Shown here in pieces: positions 3,248-16,429 of a DNA stretch of 19,743 nt. The notes beneath the pieces were generated by a model. It made no database searches. It saw only the letters and a list, made by a program, of their open reading frames with translations, and was not told where the DNA came from. Position 1 is the stretch's first letter; every line of letters begins with the position of its first letter. Source of the stretch: Promethearchaeota archaeon (GTDB lineage Archaea > Asgardarchaeota > Lokiarchaeia > Sigynarchaeales > SOKP01). Made by a program: the position numbers and the translations under genes. The DNA lies in the NCBI GenBank assembly GCA_019057975.1, contig JAHLWJ010000048.1:1-19743 (forward strand), in the 5' to 3' direction.

Positions 3248-5383
3248 ATGAAAAGATTTACAAAAAATTTAGTCTTACTTTTGATCGTTAGTACTTTAGT
3301 TATACCATTTATCCCAGTTATAGCAGAACCTAAATCCGCTCAAGAAGATAAAGTGGTCTTTAGGTATGGTGTCCAAATATCTCCCGCAGGAGGAGATTGG
3401 GACCCAGCAATTCGTCGTGCATCTAACGCTGATTCGGCCCGTTTCCCTAGCCTAGAGGGTTTTGTAAGATATCCTGCTTATTGGAATGGCGATATCGCTG
3501 ATTTACAACCATGGCTCGCAACCGATTGGACATTCGAATTTTGGCCACAAGAAAATAATTCAAAAGGATTTGTTAATAGAGCAGGGATTAAGTCGACTAC
3601 TTTAACATTGCGAGAAAATGTAACCTTCCATGATGATTCACAATGGAACGCAACGGTAGCAAAGTGGAATCTGGATCGAATCATAATAGTTTCGGGTAAT
3701 TTAACAGGAAGGGGTAATACACAATATTTATCTGATTTTTGGGAAGATGCAAGTGATTATCTCCCTTTTTATACTCCAGGTTGGAATATGTCATCTTATA
3801 TTGACAAAATGCCTTCCTATAATGGCATGGTTGCAACTATTCCTCAATTAAACGGTACTTTTCCTAAAATTAAGAATATAACCATCATAGACGCGGGAGG
3901 ACCCAATGGAGGGGGAACAATCAAAATCAACTATAATGATTGGGCTTCTTTTTCAGTCTGGGAGGTTTTAGCTACTAATCCTCAACATTATATATTGATG
4001 ATATCGATGGAGGCTTATAATGATTATTGGGATAGGCCAATTTTAGGTTTTGGAGAAAATCCCGCCTTTCCTCAGGATGAAACCTTCAAACACTTGGTTG
4101 GAACGGGGCCATATATATTTGATCATTGGACGGCCACAGGACCGACAACGGGAGGTTTAATGACAAAAAACGAGAATTATTGGAATAAAACCGCTCTTGA
4201 AAGTGTCGGTTGGTTCGAGATTGATGAAATACAATTTGTGTTATTTTCCGCTGATGCAGATGGTACGCAAGCACGTAATTTAGCTATGAAGTCTGGTGCA
4301 ATAGATTTTTCTCCCGACGTCAGTGGTTTTAATTTTGCTTATGACGAAGTTCTCGCTCAAGCTGATGTGACATATTATACAAACCCAATTGGAGATTATC
4401 CTATCGGAATTATATTGAATTGCATTAATGATACATATTGGAAGACATTATACGATGCTGGAACCCCGGGTATACCTCGCACCAATGGACTCCCTCGCTT
4501 AACCCGGAAAGCAATATCATACGCATTCGACTATGAAGGCTTTATGCAGACAGCTTATAATGGACGTGCGGATCGTATGAATAGTTATCTTGGTAAAGAT
4601 CAGCTCTATGCTAATCCAAGCATTCCCATAGCAAATTTTAACCTCACAATTGCACGACAAGCCATACTTGCTCAATATCCAGCTGAATGCGCTGCAAGAT
4701 TTCTTGATGAAAATAGTACAGCTCTAGATTGGACAGATGTTGCAAATTCAAATCCCATATACACGGTTGATTTCTATTGGGATATAACTTCGGTTCAGCA
4801 GGTTCTTAAGGATTATATGGGAACAGCTCTTAATAATATTGGACTTGCTTACTACGATGATCCTGCTCATGAATTACCTACTGTATGGGCACATATATTA
4901 ACTGGGGGAGCGTTTACTGCACAAATATGGGCATCGACTTGGGCTATAGCACCGAATGATATAGGTCACGCACATATTAATGCGTACTTCAAGTATCCAG
5001 GTCTATTTTCGATATATTATAACTTAGCTTTCAGTTATCTTGATAATGTCACAGACTGGATAGATCAAATCTATTTCTCTAATAGCAGCACAAGACAAGC
5101 ACTATACGATAATATAGGTACCACACTACAAAACTACCAGTACCCATGGATGTGGGTATGCCATGGTAAATTTGGATACGTTTATAGGAGAGAATGGGAA
5201 GTACGTGAGTTTGAGTTCTATCATGGAATGCCAACGATTGTTGGAGATCTTACCCATATAAAGTGGGTAGGATGGGAAGCACCCATACCTGAAATACCCG
5301 GATTTTCGATGTATATCACATTAGCTGTTTCGGTTACTACAACTGTTGGAATTATTTACATAATGATGAGAAAAAGAAAGTAA
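3248..5383 (+). CDS. Family 5 solute-binding protein of a peptide-type ABC importer, C-terminally anchored
   Basis: This 711-residue extracellular binding protein of the OppA/DppA class (SBP family 5) should capture the substrate and hand it to the OppBCDF-type transporter encoded at 7184-13399. It starts with a signal peptide (MKRF, a hydrophobic core, then cleavage near residue 27). It ends with a hydrophobic helix of about 20 residues and RKRK, an archaeal way of fixing binding proteins to the outer membrane face. There is no lipobox cysteine. Many N-x-S/T sequons and abundant W/Y suit a glycosylated surface protein. LTLRENVTFHDDSQWNATV near residue 120 is the classic SBP5 segment. GGAGAG at 3235-3240 stands 7 bases before the ATG. 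It is separate from the importer operon but shares its promoter sequence with the convergent M24 gene. Substrate unknown. Confidence 0.88.
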   Translation: MKRFTKNLVLLLIVSTLVIPFIPVIAEPKSAQEDKVVFRYGVQISPAGGDWDPAIRRASNADSARFPSLEGFVRYPAYWNGDIADLQPWLATDWTFEFWPQENNSKGFVNRAGIKSTTLTLRENVTFHDDSQWNATVAKWNLDRIIIVSGNLTGRGNTQYLSDFWEDASDYLPFYTPGWNMSSYIDKMPSYNGMVATIPQLNGTFPKIKNITIIDAGGPNGGGTIKINYNDWASFSVWEVLATNPQHYILMISMEAYNDYWDRPILGFGENPAFPQDETFKHLVGTGPYIFDHWTATGPTTGGLMTKNENYWNKTALESVGWFEIDEIQFVLFSADADGTQARNLAMKSGAIDFSPDVSGFNFAYDEVLAQADVTYYTNPIGDYPIGIILNCINDTYWKTLYDAGTPGIPRTNGLPRLTRKAISYAFDYEGFMQTAYNGRADRMNSYLGKDQLYANPSIPIANFNLTIARQAILAQYPAECAARFLDENSTALDWTDVANSNPIYTVDFYWDITSVQQVLKDYMGTALNNIGLAYYDDPAHELPTVWAHILTGGAFTAQIWASTWAIAPNDIGHAHINAYFKYPGLFSIYYNLAFSYLDNVTDWIDQIYFSNSSTRQALYDNIGTTLQNYQYPWMWVCHGKFGYVYRREWEVREFEFYHGMPTIVGDLTHIKWVGWEAPIPEIPGFSMYITLAVSVTTTVGIIYIMMRKRK

Positions 5384-5648: not shown

Positions 5649-6896
5649 CTAAATTGGAACTATACGTAGTTTACTGATTGGATATTTATTAAAGTTCTCA
5701 TAACCATTTTGTGTGAAGACACCTGAGGAACCGACCCAAAGACCTTTCTTTGTATTGGGAATCCTAACCCATATATGTAAAGTAACAGTGTGACCAGGTT
5801 TAAACTCGAAATCATGGTACATCTTTGCAAACATAACAGTACGAGTACCTGGGGCGGCTCCTGCTAACGGTGGCTGCATCATAAAACACCAACCAGCTAT
5901 TAATAAACTTGGTACTTGCTCAAAACCAGCATCATAAATTGGTTTAAGAAAATTATCAATATCTTTTCCTTTCATTCCTGGTTTTAGTTCGGAAACCAAA
6001 TTATCGTGAACCGTAGCTGCAACATTGAAAAGTCTTTTATACTCAGGTGTTGGATCACCGACAAACCAAGTTCCCCAGAGCTTTCCCCAGTAATTACCGT
6101 ATCCCAAACAAAACTCTGACATGAGCAAGTCGCCTACTCTCACTCGTTTACCTGTTGAATAAGGCGTAGGATAATAATATTCAGGATTTTCCATTGAGAA
6201 GGAACTGACATGACCGAATGGAAATGTTCCATAATGACGAACAGCTGTCAAATTCATTGCTCTTTGTAAATCTTTGTGTTTGATTCCAGGACGAGTCAAT
6301 TGAACTACCTCTTCTTGAGCAAGATCTGTTAAAGCTCCTGCACGCCTAAGGAGTGCAATTTCTTCTTCGCTTTTAATAAGTTGAAGAGCTTGAAACCAAG
6401 GATTAGCACTGACAATTTTCGCATCTGGAAGACTTTTATCCAAAATCTCACGCTGCTCCGTAAATAATGTAATGTCTCCAAATTGGGCTCCACCAGGACC
6501 AATAAGTCCAATCGTTCCTCTTTCGTATCCAAGATCTTTGATTTTCTGAATCGCATTTGGAAAAGCGTCTCCATCTTGTATATCTTTAACATAGGAAATG
6601 GTGGCTGCATTTACGCAATGATAATCTAAATTAATATACATTGTGGGTTCACCTTCTACTGGAACAGTAAGAAATGTTTCAAAAACATTTGCAAAACGGG
6701 TGAGATACTGAAGATGTATCTGACCAGGACTATTTCCTACCCCTACATGCCCATATACTAGAAGTATATCTATTCCTCTTTCTTTCATCTCCTTTCGGAC
6801 ATTTTTGTAACGTTGAGCCATTTCTTTATCCGAAAAATATGGTAAAAAGTTATTATCGGCAGATTCATCTATTATATCATAAATTTCTTTACTCAT
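5649..6896 (-). CDS. M24-fold hydrolase (creatinase/prolidase-like) lacking the metal ligands
   Basis: This 415-residue protein has the creatinase-type two-domain layout: an N-terminal domain of about 170 residues, then a C-terminal pita-bread domain. Metal-dependent M24 peptidases need two Asp, one His and two Glu. Aligned by eye to prolidase, those positions hold E261, K272, W336, H374 and G389, so the dinuclear metal site appears lost. Creatinase in the same fold also works without metal, splitting a C-N bond. H221 or H229 (HYGTFPFGH) could be the active-site His, but this is unproven. There is no signal peptide, so it is cytoplasmic. GAGAG precedes the ATG. It is transcribed toward the binding-protein gene from an almost identical promoter, so the two are probably co-regulated. 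Amidinohydrolase-like action on the imported compound is inference. Confidence 0.8.
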   Translation of the reverse strand: MSKEIYDIIDESADNNFLPYFSDKEMAQRYKNVRKEMKERGIDILLVYGHVGVGNSPGQIHLQYLTRFANVFETFLTVPVEGEPTMYINLDYHCVNAATISYVKDIQDGDAFPNAIQKIKDLGYERGTIGLIGPGGAQFGDITLFTEQREILDKSLPDAKIVSANPWFQALQLIKSEEEIALLRRAGALTDLAQEEVVQLTRPGIKHKDLQRAMNLTAVRHYGTFPFGHVSSFSMENPEYYYPTPYSTGKRVRVGDLLMSEFCLGYGNYWGKLWGTWFVGDPTPEYKRLFNVAATVHDNLVSELKPGMKGKDIDNFLKPIYDAGFEQVPSLLIAGWCFMMQPPLAGAAPGTRTVMFAKMYHDFEFKPGHTVTLHIWVRIPNTKKGLWVGSSGVFTQNGYENFNKYPISKLRIVPI

Positions 6897-7183: not shown

Positions 7184-8227
7184 TTATTGTTTCGGGGGAT
7201 TTACACACCAGATATAATGACCATCTTCGATTCTTATCTTACGAGGTAAATCAAATTCACATTCCTTAGTACGTACATCTGAGGAACAGCGAGGGTGAAA
7301 GGTACATCCCGAAGGTGGGGCTATAGGACTTGGAACTTCACCTTGAAGTATAAATTTTATATCCCTATTTTTCATATCAACTTCAGATCTTGATGCTAAA
7401 AGCGCTTGGGTGTAAGGATGTGTAGGTTTTGAAAAAATTTGATCAGTATCACCGATTTCAACAATTTGACCAAGATACATAACTGCAATTCGATCAGCAA
7501 TATGATTTACTACAGCTAAATTATGTGTAATGAATAAATAACAATATCCATAATTTTTTTGTAATTTTTTTAGTAAGTTAAGGATTTGTGCTTGCACCGA
7601 TACATCAAGTGCAGAAGTTGGTTCGTCAAGAACTATAAGTTCTGGATTGGTTGCAAGTGCTCGAGCAATAACAATTCTTTGCTTTTGCCCTCCTGAAAAC
7701 TCGTGAGGATAACGATCCATGTGTTCTCGCTTCAATGCTACCTCCTTCATTATTTCTAAGACTTTCTTTCTTAGTTCATCCTTTTTTTTGAGACGCAACA
7801 AATTTTTAAGAGGTTCTGCAATGATATCAAACACTTTCAAGCGAGGATTTAAAGAAGCATCTGGATCCTGATAGACAATTTGAATTTTCTGTCTGATAAA
7901 TCTTGAATAAGGGAAAGGGAGAGACTTGTCGTGAAATCGAATATCACCATTAGTCTTTTTTACTAAACCTAAAATCGAAAGAGCTGCTGTTGTTTTCCCG
8001 CAACCACTTTCTCCAACTAATCCAAGGGTTTCACCTGTCTTAATTTCGAAAGATATACCGTTAACAGCTTTAATGACACCTATTTGTCTTCTAAATATTC
8101 CTCCAATAAGAGGATAAAAAACTTTCAAATCTTTAACAATTAAGAGATTTTTGCCTTTTTCAAGATTACTATATTTGACCAAATTTTTCAACTCTAATAA
8201 CTTTAAATGTAATATATTTAACAGCAA
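7184..8227 (-). CDS. oppF: Peptide-type ABC importer ATPase, OppF/DppF-like
   Basis: One of the two cytoplasmic ATPases powering the peptide-type importer. Motifs are in order: Walker A GESGCGKT (72-79), Q-loop YQDPDASLNP (from 119), signature FSGGQKQR (177-184), Walker B with LDEPTSALD (200-208), and H-loop His235. The C-terminal oligopeptide-transporter extension has C308, C314, C323 and C341, the pattern linked to an iron-sulfur cluster in some DppD-type subunits. The ORF opens with TTG at 8227 and has no ATG near its N-terminus. Relatives begin a few residues before LLIVKDLKV (28-36), so the true start may be a TTG further in, for example 8191. It follows the oppD fusion gene after 137 bases. 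A possible internal promoter (TTTTATAATAA, 8304-8294) lies in that gap. Confidence 0.9.
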   Translation of the reverse strand: MLLNILHLKLLELKNLVKYSNLEKGKNLLIVKDLKVFYPLIGGIFRRQIGVIKAVNGISFEIKTGETLGLVGESGCGKTTAALSILGLVKKTNGDIRFHDKSLPFPYSRFIRQKIQIVYQDPDASLNPRLKVFDIIAEPLKNLLRLKKKDELRKKVLEIMKEVALKREHMDRYPHEFSGGQKQRIVIARALATNPELIVLDEPTSALDVSVQAQILNLLKKLQKNYGYCYLFITHNLAVVNHIADRIAVMYLGQIVEIGDTDQIFSKPTHPYTQALLASRSEVDMKNRDIKFILQGEVPSPIAPPSGCTFHPRCSSDVRTKECEFDLPRKIRIEDGHYIWCVNPPKQ

Positions 8228-8364
8228 AACTAGTAATCGTTGCTATTAAACAGAAGAATCAAACTCATCCATCATATTTTTTTTTCATTAAGGTTTATTA
8301 TAAAACACTTTTTTGTTCAATTACTGAAATTTTTCTTTTCTAACTCTTTTAATTTAAGGGTTAC

Positions 8365-11280
8365 TTAATTTTTATATTGAGGATCATAAAGGTGGCATGC
8401 CACGAAATACTCTGGTTCAACTTCTATGCTTTTTGGCACTTTAGAATTACAAGGTTCAAAACGATATTGACAACGAGGGTGAAATCGACATCCTGAGGGG
8501 GGATATATTAGATTTGGCACTAATCCTGGGATTACTTCAAGTTCCTCTTTTTTTTTCCCAACAACGGGTATCGACGCAATAAGACCCTTTGTATATGGAT
8601 GAGAGGGTCTTTCAAATATCCTATAAACATCTCCATATTCAACTATAAACCCACTATACATGACTGCGACTCTATCACACATTTTTGATATGATTCCAAG
8701 ATCATGTGTAATAAAAAGAATAGATGTATTGTATTTTTGTCCGAGAATCTTCATTAAATGAAGAATTTGATTTTGGATTGTAACATCCAATGCGGTTGTC
8801 GGCTCATCTGCTATTAATAATCTAGGACTACATGCAAGAGCCATAGCAACTTGAATTCTTTGTCGCATTCCCCCACTTAATTCATGGGGATATAAGTCAT
8901 AGATCCGTTCTGGGGAAGGAATGTTAAGTTCTCTTAGTAATTGCTCACTTAATTCTCGAGCAATACTGTATATACTTTTGCCAGGATGTTTCGTTGCTTC
9001 TAAGAGAAGTTCATCTTCCATGTGTAGGAGAAATACTTCAGAGATTTGTCTGCCTACTTTAAAAACTGGATTTAGAGAATTAAGAGGATCCTGAAAGATC
9101 ATTGTTATTTTGTTTCCGCGATAGTTTAAAATTTCCTTCTCAGATTTTTGGAGTAAATCTTCACCGTCAAATATAACTTTTCCACTCTCAATTTTCCCAG
9201 GCGGACGAACAACCTGAAGTATAGATAAAGCAGTAACTGATTTCCCACAACCTGTTTCTCCTACAAGACCAAGAGTTTCGCCTTCATAGATTTTAAAAGA
9301 TACTCCTTCTACCGCGCGTACAACACCTTCTTCACTGTAAAAATAGGTCGTAAGATCATTAACATCTAAAATAATTTTTTTTCCTTCAATTCTTTTATCT
9401 TGAATTTGTGTTTCCGTCACTGCTGGTAAGATTACTTGGCCTTGTCTCATTTCTTTCTTGAAGTGTTCTGGATAAAACTTCACTTTTAAAGATATGGCAT
9501 AAAAAATAAGAAAAATAGTTATATCGACAATAAGATGCACTCGAATATCCTGAACGTTGAAATTATAATTTGGTAAAATTATTAGAAATAAATTTAACAA
9601 GATGTCAATAATAATTATACTCAAGAAAAATGTGATAACTTCAATATTAAACGCAAAAATTAAGGATTGTTTAAACTCTTTACTATAAAGCTTCATAACA
9701 ATAACTGAACCAATAGTGATATCTATAACTAGAATAAGAACATTATTCAGAAGATTATCACCAAAAACATAAACAAAAAATAATTTAAGTGGTAAATTTA
9801 TAATAAACCATAGTAAATTCATAATAACTGCCTTTCTAAGAGATGCATCAAATCCTTTCTTACTTGAAAGCCATCTCGTAATATATATTCCTATAATAAA
9901 TATAATAATCAAAGAAATTATTGTAGAGAAAAGATCAGAGATAATGATTTGATAGATACCCATAAAAAAATAATAATAAATAAAGAAGAGAGGAACTACC
10001 CAAATCCATAGTAGAATAATTCCACCAATGAAAATAGAATCTCTAAGAAATTTTTTTGTAATCCGGTTCTCAGTAGGTATGAGTTTGTTAAGAATAATAT
10101 TAATAGAGATGTCGATAAGAACCATAAAAAAAGCCCATTTAACACTAAGAACAAACATGTCAAAAATAGGATTTAAGGTAGATAATAATTGTATTAAATT
10201 GATTAATACAATAACAAAAGTAATAATCCACAATAACCCTACGATTATAATTTTAATCATCCTTCTATTTTTTTCCTTTAAATGAATGCTATCATCTAAA
10301 AGATGTAAGTTCCTAAGTTTTTTCAATAAATAGAGATAAAATTTACAAGAAACACTTTCTACAAGGTAAACATCATTTTCATGCTCATTAAAACTAACAT
10401 CAAAATCTTGAGCGTCTACTATAGCTTCCTTTTCTCTAAATTGTTGTTTTTGAATTGGTTTTTCTTTCTCTTTTATTATCGCTTCTAGAAATTTCTTCTT
10501 ACTTTTTATAACTGCTTCTGGTAAAAACTTAATTCTTAACAAATTGAAATAGCTTACAATAAATATACCTAGAACAACAACCATTATCACGCGAAGATCT
10601 TGTTTTATAATAGTTATTCCGAATAATCTAGAGATATACATTTCAATAACGATAAATTGGACAAACCAGATCCCAAACGAAATTATTCCACTCGCGATTA
10701 AAGAATTTTTGAATTCCACTTTTGGAGTCTGTTTCTCAACTGGTTTTGCTTTATTTATTAAATATGTAAGAATTGTAATAAAAAAGACGGTAAAGAAAGC
10801 CGTGAAAACCCCAATATATAACATATCATAATCTGGTTTATTTGGTTCCCATACCAATTGAATTCCTAATATATCAAATGAGAGAAATATTAATGCTATA
10901 CCCCAAACTAAACCAACCATTATTATATATATTTTTTTGAATATTTTACGCAGATCAATATCTTCAAATGGACGAGATTTATCAAACTTTTTTAAAAAGG
11001 CTTTATATAAGGGGAAATATATGCATATTGCTATTGCAAAGAAGAGATAATTGTTATTCAAATATCCAATTATAGTATAATAATATTCTAAACTTTCAAT
11101 AACAAACCCAATACCAAATATAATTCCAAAGACTATTAACAAACTCAAAGCTAGACTCCCAGCATTTGTTAGTATCCTTTGATCCTTTGGAAGTAGTTTG
11201 TTTATTAGACTAATTACAAGAAATAATACTATTAAGATCGCAACAACTTCAACAAGAAGTAGTCCATAATTAAAAGCCAT
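8365..11280 (-). CDS. oppD: OppD-type ATPase fused to a large N-terminal multi-pass membrane domain
   Basis: A 971-residue protein, about three times the normal OppD length. Residues 1 to about 620 are a membrane domain of some 14-17 hydrophobic helices arranged as repeated two-helix modules, with a charged soluble stretch at about 255-335. Residues 635-971 are a complete OppD/DppD ATPase: Walker A GETGCGKS (674-681), Q-loop FQDPLNSLNP, signature LSGGMRQR (801-808), Walker B ADEPTTALD (824-832), H859, and a tail with C931, C937, C944 and C962. The frame is uninterrupted, and the ATG follows AAAGGA, so this is a true fusion and not two genes. It lies 33 bases after oppC. The ATPase must pair with OppF under the OppBC pore. 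The membrane domain may anchor, regulate or add a channel or sensor. I know no named family for that domain. Confidence 0.9.
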   Translation of the reverse strand: MAFNYGLLLVEVVAILIVLFLVISLINKLLPKDQRILTNAGSLALSLLIVFGIIFGIGFVIESLEYYYTIIGYLNNNYLFFAIAICIYFPLYKAFLKKFDKSRPFEDIDLRKIFKKIYIIMVGLVWGIALIFLSFDILGIQLVWEPNKPDYDMLYIGVFTAFFTVFFITILTYLINKAKPVEKQTPKVEFKNSLIASGIISFGIWFVQFIVIEMYISRLFGITIIKQDLRVIMVVVLGIFIVSYFNLLRIKFLPEAVIKSKKKFLEAIIKEKEKPIQKQQFREKEAIVDAQDFDVSFNEHENDVYLVESVSCKFYLYLLKKLRNLHLLDDSIHLKEKNRRMIKIIIVGLLWIITFVIVLINLIQLLSTLNPIFDMFVLSVKWAFFMVLIDISINIILNKLIPTENRITKKFLRDSIFIGGIILLWIWVVPLFFIYYYFFMGIYQIIISDLFSTIISLIIIFIIGIYITRWLSSKKGFDASLRKAVIMNLLWFIINLPLKLFFVYVFGDNLLNNVLILVIDITIGSVIVMKLYSKEFKQSLIFAFNIEVITFFLSIIIIDILLNLFLIILPNYNFNVQDIRVHLIVDITIFLIFYAISLKVKFYPEHFKKEMRQGQVILPAVTETQIQDKRIEGKKIILDVNDLTTYFYSEEGVVRAVEGVSFKIYEGETLGLVGETGCGKSVTALSILQVVRPPGKIESGKVIFDGEDLLQKSEKEILNYRGNKITMIFQDPLNSLNPVFKVGRQISEVFLLHMEDELLLEATKHPGKSIYSIARELSEQLLRELNIPSPERIYDLYPHELSGGMRQRIQVAMALACSPRLLIADEPTTALDVTIQNQILHLMKILGQKYNTSILFITHDLGIISKMCDRVAVMYSGFIVEYGDVYRIFERPSHPYTKGLIASIPVVGKKKEELEVIPGLVPNLIYPPSGCRFHPRCQYRFEPCNSKVPKSIEVEPEYFVACHLYDPQYKN

Positions 11281-11313: not shown

Positions 11314-12303
11314 TTATATATGTAATCGTGGATCTAATGCATCTCTCAAACCATCACCAATTAATATAAATCCAATTGCAGTAATTCCTATGAAAAATCC
11401 TGGCCAAAGAGCTGCTCCTGGTGTTTCGAAATGACCTCTTGCATACATAATATCTGCTCCCCAATTAGCAACATCTGGATCCCCCAAACCTATAAAGGCA
11501 AGACCTGCTAGACCTATAACAGTTACCCCCATTGCTCCAAAGAAAGATATAATAATGGGAGAGATAGCGTTAGGAAAAATATGTTTAAACATAACTCTAA
11601 ATTTAGTTGCACCACTACTTATTGCAGCTCTAACATAATCATTTTGTTTTACTTGTAAAACTAAAGATCGCATAAATCTAATGTTAAAGGGTATAAAAAG
11701 AATACCATAAATTAGTAGAGTAGTATATAAATCCTTTCCAACCAAGGGAGCAATAACTAAAACAATTATCAACATTGGTAAACTTAAGAATATATCACAG
11801 ATGCGCATAATGATGAAATCAACCCTACCTCCAAAATATGCCGAAATTGTTCCTATAAAAACACCTCCACCTATAGAAATTGCAACTGGGAACACTGCTG
11901 CCTGTATCGTAGTCCTAGTACCCCAGATCAATCTTCCAAGAATATCCCATCCAAATTGTGTTGTACCTAATGGGTGTTCTGGCGATGGTGGTTGGAACGC
12001 GGGTTCTCCCGGATATAGTGGTGGAGTTACGTTCGCTAAAGTAAGTTCAGTAAGCCCAGGAGCATAAACGGCTATAAATACCACAATTAAAACCAAGAAG
12101 AAACCAACCAGGGTTAAAGGCGTAATAAGACGGCGGAATACTCTTCTTTTTGATTTTAATTTTTCAATCTGATATTCTCGTGCAGAAAATTCAGGGTTTC
12201 GCCAACCAGGCATTAAATAAAATTTGATTAATCGCTTAATCTTTGCATTACTATTCTTTAGTGGATATTCCTCAATTTTATCTTTTTCGCTATAATCTTG
12301 CAT
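11314..12303 (-). CDS. oppC: Peptide-type ABC importer permease, OppC/DppC-like
   Basis: Inner-membrane permease that forms the importer pore with OppB. The N-terminus has a long basic cytoplasmic part and a helix near residues 60-80 (PLTLVGFFLVLIVVFIAVY). The family segment HPLGTTQFGWDILGRLIWG follows, then about five more helices. The ATPase-coupling EAA loop is visible as RAAISSGATKFRVMFKHIFPN, and the protein ends with the typical GDGLRDALDPRL. I chose the ATG at 12303 because GTGAT lies 7 bases upstream; an in-frame GTG at 12315 would add four residues. Only 25 bases separate it from the oppB stop, so the two are cotranscribed. Confidence 0.93.
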   Translation of the reverse strand: MQDYSEKDKIEEYPLKNSNAKIKRLIKFYLMPGWRNPEFSAREYQIEKLKSKRRVFRRLITPLTLVGFFLVLIVVFIAVYAPGLTELTLANVTPPLYPGEPAFQPPSPEHPLGTTQFGWDILGRLIWGTRTTIQAAVFPVAISIGGGVFIGTISAYFGGRVDFIIMRICDIFLSLPMLIIVLVIAPLVGKDLYTTLLIYGILFIPFNIRFMRSLVLQVKQNDYVRAAISSGATKFRVMFKHIFPNAISPIIISFFGAMGVTVIGLAGLAFIGLGDPDVANWGADIMYARGHFETPGAALWPGFFIGITAIGFILIGDGLRDALDPRLHI

Positions 12304-12328
12304 TATTAATATCACAATTTCTAAATCA

Positions 12329-13399
12329 TTAAGTATATGTTATCCTCGGATCGATAATGGTATATATTACATCTGTTGCTAATGTTCCACCAATTATAAT
12401 TAAGCACGAACATACTAAAAATCCGTTTATAAGTAAATAATCACCTTGAGTTACAGAACGAACAAAGTAATATCCAAATCCTAAATATTGAAAAGTTGCT
12501 TCTAAGAAAATTGATCCTAAAAGTGACCCTGTTATCGTGGTTATTATGAGATTACTTGAAGGAATTAAAGCATTCCGAAGGGCATGTGAGTTGATGACCT
12601 TTTTTTCCGGAACTCCCTTAGCTCGGGCTGTCCGAATATAATCCTGATCCATGACATCTAACATACTAGAACGAGTTTGTCTAGTGATACCCGCCAGAGA
12701 AGCAAAAGATATACAAATTACTGGAATAATTAAATGGAGGACAGTATCAAAAAAGAAGATAGGGTCGTTATTGAAAATAGCATCAATAAGTCGAAATCCA
12801 GTAAAGTATTCACCTTTTAATTCAAGTCCAGATGTATTCGAAAACATAATCGGTAGATCAATTTCACCATATGTAAATTTATGTAAAGAAACACCAAAAA
12901 ATAATTGTAGTAGGTTACCTATAAAAAAAATTGGCACTCCCGCACCTAGAACCGCAAGAAAACGAATAGAGGTATCTTTTAGTTTATCCTTGTTTGTTGA
13001 GGATACAATTCCAAGCTTAACGGCAATAAGGGGAATTATAACAATCGGAACTATCATTAATTCAATTGTTTTAGGAAAAACCAAACCGATAACTTCGGTT
13101 ACAGGGGTGTTACGCATAATAACATAGGAATCACCCCAATTTCCAGTGAAAAAATTCTGTAGATAAATTATTAACTGAACATATATTGGTTTGTCATATC
13201 CCATTCTTCTTTTTTCTTCTGCAATCATTCTTTGTATTTGTTCTATATCTTCGCCAAACGCCACCTGTGAAATAACAGGAAACACATTCATGAATTTTGA
13301 TAAAACAAAAGTAATTATTAAAACTATGATTAATATTGGAATCATCATCAATATGCGCTTGATAATATATTTAATCATATTCTGAGCTTGACGAGCCAT
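12329..13399 (-). CDS. oppB: Peptide-type ABC importer permease, OppB/DppB-like
   Basis: A 356-residue inner-membrane permease, the partner of OppC. It opens with the classic YIIKRILMMIPILI helix. It has about six transmembrane segments, a large external region near residues 50-100 and 165-215, and the ATPase-contacting EAA-type loop DYIRTARAKGVPEKKVI. The C-terminus ends with VIYTIIDPRI, typical of DppB. AGGAAG stands 5 bases before the ATG. It follows the small membrane protein gene by 59 bases. The length is slightly above the family norm because the external loop is longer, which suits an archaeal version. Confidence 0.92.
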   Translation of the reverse strand: MARQAQNMIKYIIKRILMMIPILIIVLIITFVLSKFMNVFPVISQVAFGEDIEQIQRMIAEEKRRMGYDKPIYVQLIIYLQNFFTGNWGDSYVIMRNTPVTEVIGLVFPKTIELMIVPIVIIPLIAVKLGIVSSTNKDKLKDTSIRFLAVLGAGVPIFFIGNLLQLFFGVSLHKFTYGEIDLPIMFSNTSGLELKGEYFTGFRLIDAIFNNDPIFFFDTVLHLIIPVICISFASLAGITRQTRSSMLDVMDQDYIRTARAKGVPEKKVINSHALRNALIPSSNLIITTITGSLLGSIFLEATFQYLGFGYYFVRSVTQGDYLLINGFLVCSCLIIIGGTLATDVIYTIIDPRITYT

Positions 13400-13458: not shown

Positions 13459-13887
13459 CTAATATTTTTCTCTTTTTCGTACTGATAATTGTTTGAATTT
13501 CATCCCTATCAAAGAACCGCTTAGAGTTAATCCGATTAAAATTAAAATGTTAAGATATCCCTTGTAATGAGCAAATTGTAAAATAAAGGGCTCTAAACTC
13601 AACCCAAACATAACAAAATAAAAAATAAACCCTTCCAAGATTATCGTGGGAACTAGCCAAATCGATGCTCTAATTCCATAATGGGGGATTTCTTCCTTGT
13701 AAGTCAGAATGAAACACACTATAAATAATAATATTAAAGGCAAAAAGAAAGTGTCCACATACACTTCATATGTCCAAAATAACACCGTTCGATCTATTTC
13801 AGTAAAAGATATCCATGTTTGTTCCGTAAGAGATATCCACTCATCAACCAAAACGATGTTGATGACAAGACCATAATATCCTAGCAA
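13459..13887 (-). CDS. Small membrane protein heading the importer operon, related to the OppD membrane domain
   Basis: The canonical-start ORF opens at a TTG (13887) and gives 142 residues with about four hydrophobic helices and a basic tail (KFKQLSVRKREKY). That TTG falls inside a hydrophobic stretch. The same frame stays open upstream to 14028 with no ATG, GTG or TTG, and it encodes an acidic, soluble-looking segment. GAGGG stands 7 bases before an ATT at 14004, so the true start may be that ATT (181 residues). Residues 113-130 match residues 513-530 of the OppD fusion at 9 of 18 positions (N-x-LIL-x6-GS-x-I-x-MK). It may therefore be a stand-alone relative of that membrane domain and an accessory importer subunit. 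I recognise no named family. Confidence 0.6.
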   Translation of the reverse strand: MLGYYGLVINIVLVDEWISLTEQTWISFTEIDRTVLFWTYEVYVDTFFLPLILLFIVCFILTYKEEIPHYGIRASIWLVPTIILEGFIFYFVMFGLSLEPFILQFAHYKGYLNILILIGLTLSGSLIGMKFKQLSVRKREKY

Positions 13888-14413: not shown

Positions 14414-16429
14414 ATGAAATTTGTCAAATTGTTTGAACCATTTAAGATAGATGACCTTGAATTACGAAATCGAATTGTAATGCCTGCTATGGCATTAAAT
14501 TTTTCTCGAGACGGAGGAATTAATGATAAAACAATTGATTTTTATGTAGAGCGTGCGAAAGGAGGAGTGGGTTTAATTATAATTGGAGGTGCTGGAGTTG
14601 AACCTAGAGGAGGAGGTCCAACAATGTTCGCAATCCATGATGACAAATACATCCCCAGTTATACAAAGTTTACTGAAAGTATGCACCATCATGGTACGAA
14701 AACTTTTGTACAACTTTACCACGCTGGAGCATATTCTGGTATGCCAGATATGGTCTCTTCTTCTGCAGTAATGTCTAATCTTACAAGAAGGGTTCCCAAA
14801 GAATTATTGATAGACGATATTAAGGTTGTTCAAGAAAATCATGTTCTAGCCGCAGAAAGAGCCTTAAAAGCAGGTTTTGATGGCGTAGAACTATTAGGAA
14901 GTGCAGGATATCTTATCAATCAATTTTTAAGTCCAGTTACCAATAAAAGGACGGATGAATATGGAGGTTCTTTAGAAAACAGATTAAGATACCCCTTGGA
15001 ATTAATACAATTGGTAAAAGAAAGAATAGGAGAAAAAATGATTGTAGGAATGAGAATAGCCGGTGATGACTTCGTACCTGGATCTAATACATATAAAGAA
15101 AGTGCAGTCTTTGCAAAGCATTATGCTAATGCGGGAATTGATTACATTAATGTAACTGGAGGTTGGCATGAAACTAGAATTCCTCAAATTCCCATGATGG
15201 TTCCACAAGGAGCTTATGCTTATCTGGCTGAGAATATAAAAAGTGTTGTCGATGTACCTGTCTTCTCTAGTAATCGTATCAATAGCCCTATCGTAGCAGA
15301 ACAAATTCTAAGAGATCAAATGGCAGATGCAATTTGTATGGGAAGAGCACTCATTGCAGATGCTTATTTACCTCTCAAAGCAAAACAGAATAAACTCTGG
15401 GACATCCGAAAATGTGTAGGTTGTAATCAAGGTTGTTTTGATCATATTTTTACTGGAAAGGCTGTTGAATGTATGAGGAATTATATGGTTTCAAGGGAGG
15501 GCAAAATTGATCTTGATGTCTTAACAGAGCATCCTATAAAAGTCTTAATAATAGGCGCTGGTCCTGGTGGATTGGAAGCAGCAAGAATAGCAAAAGTTTT
15601 GGGACATAATGTCACAATACTCGAAAAAAGACTCAACCTTGGTGGTCAAGCGAATCTTTCATGGGTCCCTCCTGGACGATATGATATTCATGAAATTTTG
15701 GATTATTATTCCTCACAAATAGAAAATCTAGGAATTGAATTGCATCTAGGAGTGGAAGCAGATTTAGAATCTATTAACAAATATCAACCTGATGCAGTCA
15801 TTTTCGCGACAGGTGTTAAATATAATATTCCTGACATACCAGGAATTGATGGTAGTTTAGGGAGTGAAATCTATTTAGCTGAAAAAATTCTTGAGGGAGA
15901 ATATCCTATTGGAAAAAATGTTGTAGTGGTTGGTGGTTCAGCGACAGGAATGGAAACTGCTATTTGGGCGGCAGAACAAGGGGCAATTAGTTCTGAAATT
16001 GCAAAATTCATAGCATTTTACGAATTATTGCCTAAAGAAGAATTATTTAAGCGATGGTTGAGAGGTAATCGTAAGGTTACTATCATTGATATGCTTCCCA
16101 AACTAGGTATGAGTATTGGAAGAACGACTCGAGGATTTTTAATTGGTCAAATCACGAAATTAGGAATTATTAGCATCCTAAATGTTCAAATTAAAAAATT
16201 TGAAGGTAAAACCTTAATTTATGAGCATGGGAATGAAACAAAAACATTAGAAAATATTGACACCTTTATAATAGCTGCAGGAGTAACCCCTAATGACGAA
16301 CTATTTAATAAAGTAAAGCAAACTAATCCCCCTTATAAAATATTTAAAATAGGAGATTGCAAAAAACCACGAACGATGATGGAAGCAATTCATGAAGGAT
16401 TTAGAACCGCCTACAATCTCGATAAATGA
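14414..16429 (+). CDS. 2,4-dienoyl-CoA reductase / 2-enoate reductase-type flavo-iron-sulfur enzyme
   Basis: A 671-residue enzyme with the FadH layout that reduces activated C=C bonds using FMN, a 4Fe-4S cluster, FAD and NAD(P)H. Residues 1-330 form an Old Yellow Enzyme barrel with Y166 and H252, placed as the catalytic pair of 2,4-dienoyl-CoA reductase. The cluster ligands are C334, C337, C341 and C353. A dinucleotide-binding GAGPGG (381-386) and VVVGGSATG (504-512) follow. The usual HGAHGYL of the barrel reads LGSAGYL here, as in enoate-type members. GGTGA at 14402-14406 stands before the ATG. It converges with crotonase 1. Reduction of an unsaturated acyl-CoA feeding the crotonases is likely; the exact substrate is unknown. 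Confidence 0.9.
   Translation: MKFVKLFEPFKIDDLELRNRIVMPAMALNFSRDGGINDKTIDFYVERAKGGVGLIIIGGAGVEPRGGGPTMFAIHDDKYIPSYTKFTESMHHHGTKTFVQLYHAGAYSGMPDMVSSSAVMSNLTRRVPKELLIDDIKVVQENHVLAAERALKAGFDGVELLGSAGYLINQFLSPVTNKRTDEYGGSLENRLRYPLELIQLVKERIGEKMIVGMRIAGDDFVPGSNTYKESAVFAKHYANAGIDYINVTGGWHETRIPQIPMMVPQGAYAYLAENIKSVVDVPVFSSNRINSPIVAEQILRDQMADAICMGRALIADAYLPLKAKQNKLWDIRKCVGCNQGCFDHIFTGKAVECMRNYMVSREGKIDLDVLTEHPIKVLIIGAGPGGLEAARIAKVLGHNVTILEKRLNLGGQANLSWVPPGRYDIHEILDYYSSQIENLGIELHLGVEADLESINKYQPDAVIFATGVKYNIPDIPGIDGSLGSEIYLAEKILEGEYPIGKNVVVVGGSATGMETAIWAAEQGAISSEIAKFIAFYELLPKEELFKRWLRGNRKVTIIDMLPKLGMSIGRTTRGFLIGQITKLGIISILNVQIKKFEGKTLIYEHGNETKTLENIDTFIIAAGVTPNDELFNKVKQTNPPYKIFKIGDCKKPRTMMEAIHEGFRTAYNLDK

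Follow-up and report, generated by a model that had tools for sequence, protein, structure and literature searches.

The window, meaning the whole 19,743-nucleotide stretch of DNA analysed here, contains an importer operon on its minus strand in the order small membrane protein (13459..13887), oppB (12329..13399), oppC (11314..12315), fused oppD (8365..11280), oppF (7184..8227) and M24 peptidase (5649..6896), with a binding-protein gene on the opposite strand (3248..5383, plus). Both permeases were recognised by Pfam and NCBI models and were complete by Pfam. The binding protein, placed in family 5 of the substrate-binding proteins by the same two model sets, ends in a Loki-CTERM tail that scored 20.0 bits against a cut-off of 19.9. 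The peptidase, a Pfam assignment, was present among the loci examined only in the window and in its relatives L045-L048. The small membrane protein lies upstream of oppB in fused and soluble sister operons alike and had no Pfam match over the cut-off. The window also encodes, at 14414-16429, a long-form OYE/FadH-like oxidoreductase that matched the mycofactocin OYE 2 and BaiCD models best, at scores below their cut-offs, and beyond it lie genes that by eye resemble those of enoyl-CoA hydratases.

The fused oppD-type gene is a single uninterrupted frame of 971 codons, opening with ATG and running from 11280 to 8365 on the minus strand; plus-strand frame 1 over 8365-11280 is stop-rich. It encodes about 612 membrane residues, with the N-terminus predicted outside, followed by a complete OppD-type ATPase (residues 637-971, 8368..9372). 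Pfam placed ABC_tran at residues 658-829 (93.8 bits, cut-off 25) and oligo_HPY at 880-944 (74.6 bits, cut-off 27.1). Using what we take to be the consensus patterns, all the expected ATPase motifs were located: Walker A at 674, the Q-loop at 727, the signature at 801, Walker B at 821 and the H-loop at 857. The C-terminal part contains four cysteines, at 931, 937, 944 and 962 (8395..8490), spaced 6/7/18. The top NCBI model was OppD PRK09473 (328.5 bits, residues 637-964), for which the curated cut-off is 575 bits, so that the ATPase is OppD-like and falls outside that subfamily. Judged from these sequence features, the fused protein is an OppD/DppD-type ATPase of the peptide/opine/nickel-type ABC importer family. 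The original prediction of one 971-codon frame with many helices before a complete OppD ATPase was borne out, on the minus strand and with 15 helices modelled.

An in-frame ATG stands 26 codons ahead of the ATPase in the window, L045, L046 and L048, with GTG in its place in L047. A Shine-Dalgarno-like word accompanies this start in L045 and L046 only, and 6 of 29 genes have any start with such a word in the stretch before the ATPase. Because of the internal start, a second, soluble ATPase product may be made in this closest group (the window and L045-L048).

In ABC exporters the membrane domain likewise comes first and the ATPase follows, which would fit an exporter-type half-transporter in which the two fused parts form a pump of their own, apart from OppBC. 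We consider this extremely improbable. The ATPase is of the OppD type with oligo_HPY, and Pfam lists no exporter membrane family up to E = 1, although a very divergent one could escape. Moreover, the fused gene keeps the company of an importer, as had been predicted from the window. Among the distinct fused genes examined, oppC adjoined oppD in 32 of 32, with a spacing within 200 nt in 31 and an overlap of 93 nt in one if its first start codon is used, and oppF lay within 200 nt in all 31 in which it could be seen (the L010 contig ends about 850 nt past oppD). These counts omit contig-cut OppDs (such as L008, L051, L065, L066 and L123), duplicates and the short loci L014-L043.

A structural model of residues 1-625 contained 15 helices of 20 or more residues (mean pLDDT 74.6, pTM 0.61). 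Counts of lysine and arginine over eight long forms, with helix ends trimmed by hand, fit an outside N-terminus and an inside C-terminus at all 14 loops: the seven loops expected inside each averaged at least 2.6 such residues and the seven expected outside at most 1.6. TM1-3 (residues 1-107, unit U0, 10960..11280) are present in short and long forms of the family by alignment. They are followed by TM4-7 (residues 108-270, unit U1, 10471..10959), which carry a QD(I/L)RV motif and end in a long helix; by a linker that is charged, evolves fast and, from its lysine and arginine counts, should lie in the cytoplasm (271-332, 10285..10470); by TM8-10 (333-442, 9955..10284); by TM11-14 (443-570, 9571..9954); by TM15, again with QDIRV (571-612, 9445..9570); and by the linker into the ATPase (613-636, 9373..9444).

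TM1-7 of the long form correspond to the whole membrane domain of the short forms, and a long gap appears when the second half is aligned with the first. When residues ~444-570 were removed, hhalign matched U1 to the remainder of the second half over 141 columns (probability 99.6, E 9.4e-25), with TM8-10 corresponding to TM4-6 and TM15 to TM7. The reversed sequence gave a probability of 0.4, and TM8-10 joined to the wrong helix matched over 96 columns only. Since TM8-10 and TM15 match TM4-7 once the insert is taken out, the long form is, on these alignments, TM1-3, TM4-7 and a second copy of TM4-7 that received a foreign four-helix segment, TM11-14, before its last helix. The 620 residues had been predicted to be one domain; they are instead a duplicated unit with an insertion.

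Internal duplication is a pattern known from carriers, and together with the 15 helices it could indicate a second transport path, a channel or carrier that the attached ATPase drives or gates. We rate this as very unlikely. The commoner form of the domain has only seven helices, a mobile module interrupts the duplication, and neither a transporter family over the Pfam cut-off nor a solved fold by Foldseek was matched. One OppD, L125:5917-7596, has a shortened membrane domain of two to three hydrophobic segments, which also counts against such a path. As OppB and OppC are intact, the extra helices are an addition and not a substitute permease.

Searches of the membrane part against families and structures, which the original prediction had called for, gave no family or fold match over the cut-offs. 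Pfam found no family ahead of residue 658 of the fused OppD and none over cut-off for the membrane part, a PDB sequence search with the 7-helix profile had no match, and Foldseek at E 0.001 matched no solved fold to the 15-helix or 7-helix models. VIA-align values for the 7-helix model were within helical-bundle noise. Because the models are of moderate confidence, the lack of a fold match does not prove a new fold.

Four residues, D152, D228, R230 and P254, were invariant in 52 aligned proteins. In the 7-helix model the last helix is unbroken over residues 225-277 and points to the ATPase, and the charged D228 and R230 stand at the beginning of the corresponding helix. Such a continuous helix might connect a sensor to the ATPases, with the membrane domain detecting lipid, tension, a ligand or membrane potential and inhibiting or licensing the ATPases through the helix and linker; that both ATPases are extended in 30 of 31 operons would also suit a regulator. 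However, the linker before the ATPase is among the fastest-evolving pieces of the protein (dN/dS 0.55-1.0 over 24 codons) and therefore a poor candidate for a tight signal path, and Pfam recognised no ligand-binding family. We think a regulatory or sensory role unlikely.

With residues 1-625 as the query (7996 candidates scored), at least 24 proteins were matched, including the window's own: at least 17 of 971-1022 residues share the full layout, again counting that of the window, and at least 7 of 616-664 residues have the first membrane half only. Selection was assessed in four gene pairs, three with the window and one of L047 against L048. The two membrane halves gave dN/dS of 0.26-0.50, compared with 0.05-0.11 for the ATPase, and their dN exceeded the ATPase value three- to ninefold. 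Because at least 17 proteins share the full layout and dN/dS is below 1 in the membrane halves, the fused OppD is no assembly accident, chance frame or product of joined reads; the same two results counter the possibility, raised earlier, of separate genes or a frameshift near residue 620.

A short-form query matched 125 proteins, and 119 of the 120 among the matches listed had an ABC ATPase domain; the exception has 381 residues and comes from a 3.5-kb contig. A scan of the genomes of 84,980 species with one peptide pattern returned 13 loci, every one bearing the title Lokiarchaeota or Lokiarchaeia. Proteins matched in the protein searches were in addition assigned to Promethearchaeota, Thor-, Hod- and Heimdallarchaeota and, in one case, to a Neomarinimicrobiota MAG. 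The protein named as from that MAG, P0076, is a short form and possibly misbinned. The Loki-CTERM tail of the window's binding protein is in keeping with the same group of archaea. No fused OppD was found in searches of viral contigs and plasmids. Among 227 genomes of the phylum, the 7-helix domain was matched in at least 20; with up to 11 (7-helix), 9 (OppD ATPase) and 12 (OppF extension) candidates scored per genome, counts from these scans are lower bounds, and the 7-helix and ATPase scans missed the divergent fused OppDs L121 and L122 (genomes G092 and G093). OppD ATPases of at least 70% identity, among the matches listed, lay in frames of 633-1103 residues at all 30 uncut places, with 4 more cut by contig ends and no complete soluble OppD, whereas those at 57% identity or less lay in shorter frames of at most 423 residues.

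The tree of 73 OppD ATPases put the fused proteins on one side of a branch and the 12 soluble ones on the other. Support for this branch was 98/77, which by the tree program's own standard neither shows nor rejects it; the first tree, built before L121, L122 and L125 were added, gave 97/85. As the fused OppDs share one side of the branch, a single gain of the fusion would be the simplest reading, the branch itself not being decisive. On the first tree, three changes are required to explain the long form, one of them forced by strong branches. L065 was excluded from the character-state count on both trees.

OppF is also usually extended in these operons. The relatives' OppF extensions, scanned for hydrophobic segments, are longer than that of the window and hydrophobic, and vary widely in length and helix number, and the N-terminal extension had at least 118 residues in 30 of the 31 operons. 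The exception is the window, in which OppF (347 residues, by reading frame an ATPase only) has 34 residues. Compared with L045, the window oppF lacks about 220 nt of the extension and the remainder has a one-base offset; alignment and reading frames place a remnant of the membrane extension at 8172..8252 (minus) in another frame. The missing stretch and the offset may be biological or may stem from the assembly. Several other OppF genes are of unusual build. L058:6842-8851 has three copies of the module described below, the third weak, and L120:3459-5495 has two; L047:12648-14486, L048:5791-7629 and L066:1480-3360 have a longer membrane extension, the first ~195 residues of which match neither module type.

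The inserted TM11-14 matched the N-terminal helices of the 7-helix extension of OppF by profile comparison (probability 99.3, E 6.5e-21) and, by BLASTP, at up to 41% identity. A search with the OppF extension matched at least 39 of the 227 genomes, and the places matched included open frames of ~127-176 and 350-455 residues; some of the stand-alone matches contain stops inside the matched frame. In a tree of the modules, those inserted in long-form OppDs (8 rows) formed one clade apart from those of OppF (14 rows) in 98% of bootstraps. A database search for the module (7993 candidates scored) matched at least 73 proteins, 72 of them of 88-144 residues, and the named sources among the matches found were Lokiarchaeota or Promethearchaeota.

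We then used a profile made from stand-alone proteins only, with no ABC sequence inside, the seeds of which had originally been found via the OppF-extension profile. It matched residues 443-570 of the window OppD at E 1e-25 and OppF extensions at best at 1.4e-29, and the best score among shuffled and reversed copies of 1205 ORFs was 0.011. The same profile matched the N-terminus of six permeases (L097, L098, L099, L102, L105 and L106; E 6e-19 to 3e-36) and the C-terminus of a seventh, L101:7706-9049 (E 4e-34). Pfam assigned PF00528 to L097, L099 and L102, which we take to be of the His/Gln type, and PF02653 to L101, presumably nucleoside-type; L098, L105 and L106 were called permeases by their likeness to those tested. 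Five of the six permeases with an N-terminal module are accompanied by a binding protein, an ATPase and another permease in an arrangement that by eye resembles an amino-acid importer, and the L098 contig ends right after the permease. L100 was not counted as a fusion, because its frame passes through masked bases into another gene.

Pfam gave no family over cut-off for the module in module-bearing or stand-alone proteins. Kinship with DUF2070 (PF09843) was rejected: below-cut-off matches were confined to 3 of 12 and 4 of 9 proteins, and profile-profile comparison (first ~230 residues, 10 DUF2070 proteins) gave a probability of 0.1, no better than reversed. Every fusion partner identified for the module was an ABC importer subunit (OppD, OppF, or a PF00528 or PF02653 permease), and the attachment of one piece to subunits from three families of importers points to an accessory role common to them. 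As the module also exists free-standing, the stand-alone protein may act in trans on ABC importers. At 12 stand-alone loci judged by eye, no ABC gene was seen beside it. We propose only tentatively, with the odds somewhat against it, that the four-helix module is a general ABC-importer accessory of Asgard archaea, in trans as the ~136-residue protein and in cis on peptide-type ATPases and on amino-acid- and nucleoside-type permeases, and that the window's importer is one of a class with obligatory membrane ATPases.

The extensions could also be neutral accretion, a harmless anchor gained once and grown by duplication and insertion with no specific role. Their wide differences in length and helix number, the loss of the extension from the window OppF and the faster evolution of the membrane halves are all in keeping with this. 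However, the absence of any complete soluble OppD among the matches listed at 70% identity or above, the dN/dS below 1, the four invariant residues and the recurrence of the module on three kinds of importer all oppose it, and we judge neutral accretion distinctly unlikely. The faster dN of the membrane halves and the missing extension of the window OppF do suggest that the OppD and OppF extensions may be partly dispensable.

The reading we favour, with a probability of roughly one half, is that the extra helices form an accessory domain beside OppBC, comparable to a TMD0, that anchors the ATPases and serves as an assembly or docking scaffold. The classical core of OppB, OppC, the OppD and OppF ATPases and an anchored binding protein would run the usual alternating access. 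The OppD ATPase subunit would have turned into an integral membrane protein, its 15 extra helices sitting beside OppBC, holding the ATPase at the membrane and probably providing the scaffold. A domain beside the core is favoured because OppD and OppF alike are extended in 30 of 31 operons, and because one module is shared with permeases of other importers. From the computed architecture, topology signal, conservation, operon, duplication, insertion and presence of the module in other ABC subunits, we infer the position beside OppBC, the scaffold role and the trans-acting partner. Counting against a scaffold are the fast membrane halves, the loss in the window OppF, the stand-alone modules with no ABC neighbours seen and the moderate-confidence models with no solved-fold match. 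The third membrane component for the importer that was originally predicted stands as a multi-pass addition to OppBC, but it is not specific to OppD, being found also on OppF, on the permeases of other importers and as a free protein. In TAP and TAPL, TMD0 is reported to be an interaction and targeting domain (PMC3437018, PMC6199259). The fused OppD resembles a TMD0 protein in having, at its N-terminus, a membrane domain over and above the transport core, and the position of that domain in the complex is a prediction.

Separate soluble ATPase subunits are the textbook arrangement for peptide-type importers. This rule is broken by a group whose two ATPases usually bear membrane helices, numbering about 3, 7 or 15 depending on the operon. 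Operons with differing helix numbers offer a natural series for studying the effect of an extra membrane domain on an ABC importer, and the module gives a definite starting point for finding out what an unnamed Asgard membrane protein does. A search of open-licence papers found no description of such an OppD-membrane fusion, and a survey of Asgard transporters lists PepT homologues with, in its available text, no mention of one (PMC7997004). The original remark that no importer with this layout had been described holds to that extent, but the layout is not unique to the window and belongs to a conserved archaeal group, mostly with seven helices.

Among known systems, E. coli DppABCDF (8z1v and others) resembles the present operon in having separate D and F ATPases, B and C permeases and a binding protein, and the cysteine spacing of the fused OppD equals that of the DppD [4Fe-4S] ligands, Cys284/290/297/315 (PMC12136057). 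The chains of DppD (8z1v and others) and of the OppD of PDB 8z21 have 327-336 residues, whereas the ATPase of the window follows 15 predicted membrane helices. The best solved-structure sequence match of the fused OppD ATPase was to M. tuberculosis OppABCD/DppABCD (PDB 8j5q, 8wd9; E 1.3e-105), which differ in carrying two ATPase domains in one chain of 548-612 residues; the match starts near residue 4 or 23 of those chains, leaving no room for such an N-terminal membrane domain. Like the TMD0 of TAP, TAPL and ABCB6, the extra domain is an N-terminal membrane domain outside the transport core. A TMD0 sits ahead of a membrane-plus-ATPase subunit, whereas the domain of the fused OppD precedes an importer ATPase, and no homology to TMD0 was detected in PDB sequences or, with the moderate-confidence models, by Foldseek at E 0.001. 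Within the phylum, a comparison can be made with four soluble sister operons (L073, L074, L077 and L078), which have the oppC, oppD, oppF order of the window, the upstream small membrane protein in three of four cases and OppDs that score 414-458 bits against the window ATPase. They differ in that OppD has 416-425 residues and OppF 340-349 (463 in L073 by its first start codon), with no hydrophobic segments predicted ahead of the ATPase. The unnamed family of stand-alone four-helix proteins of ~136 residues is homologous to residues 443-570 of the fused OppD and has no ATPase attached.
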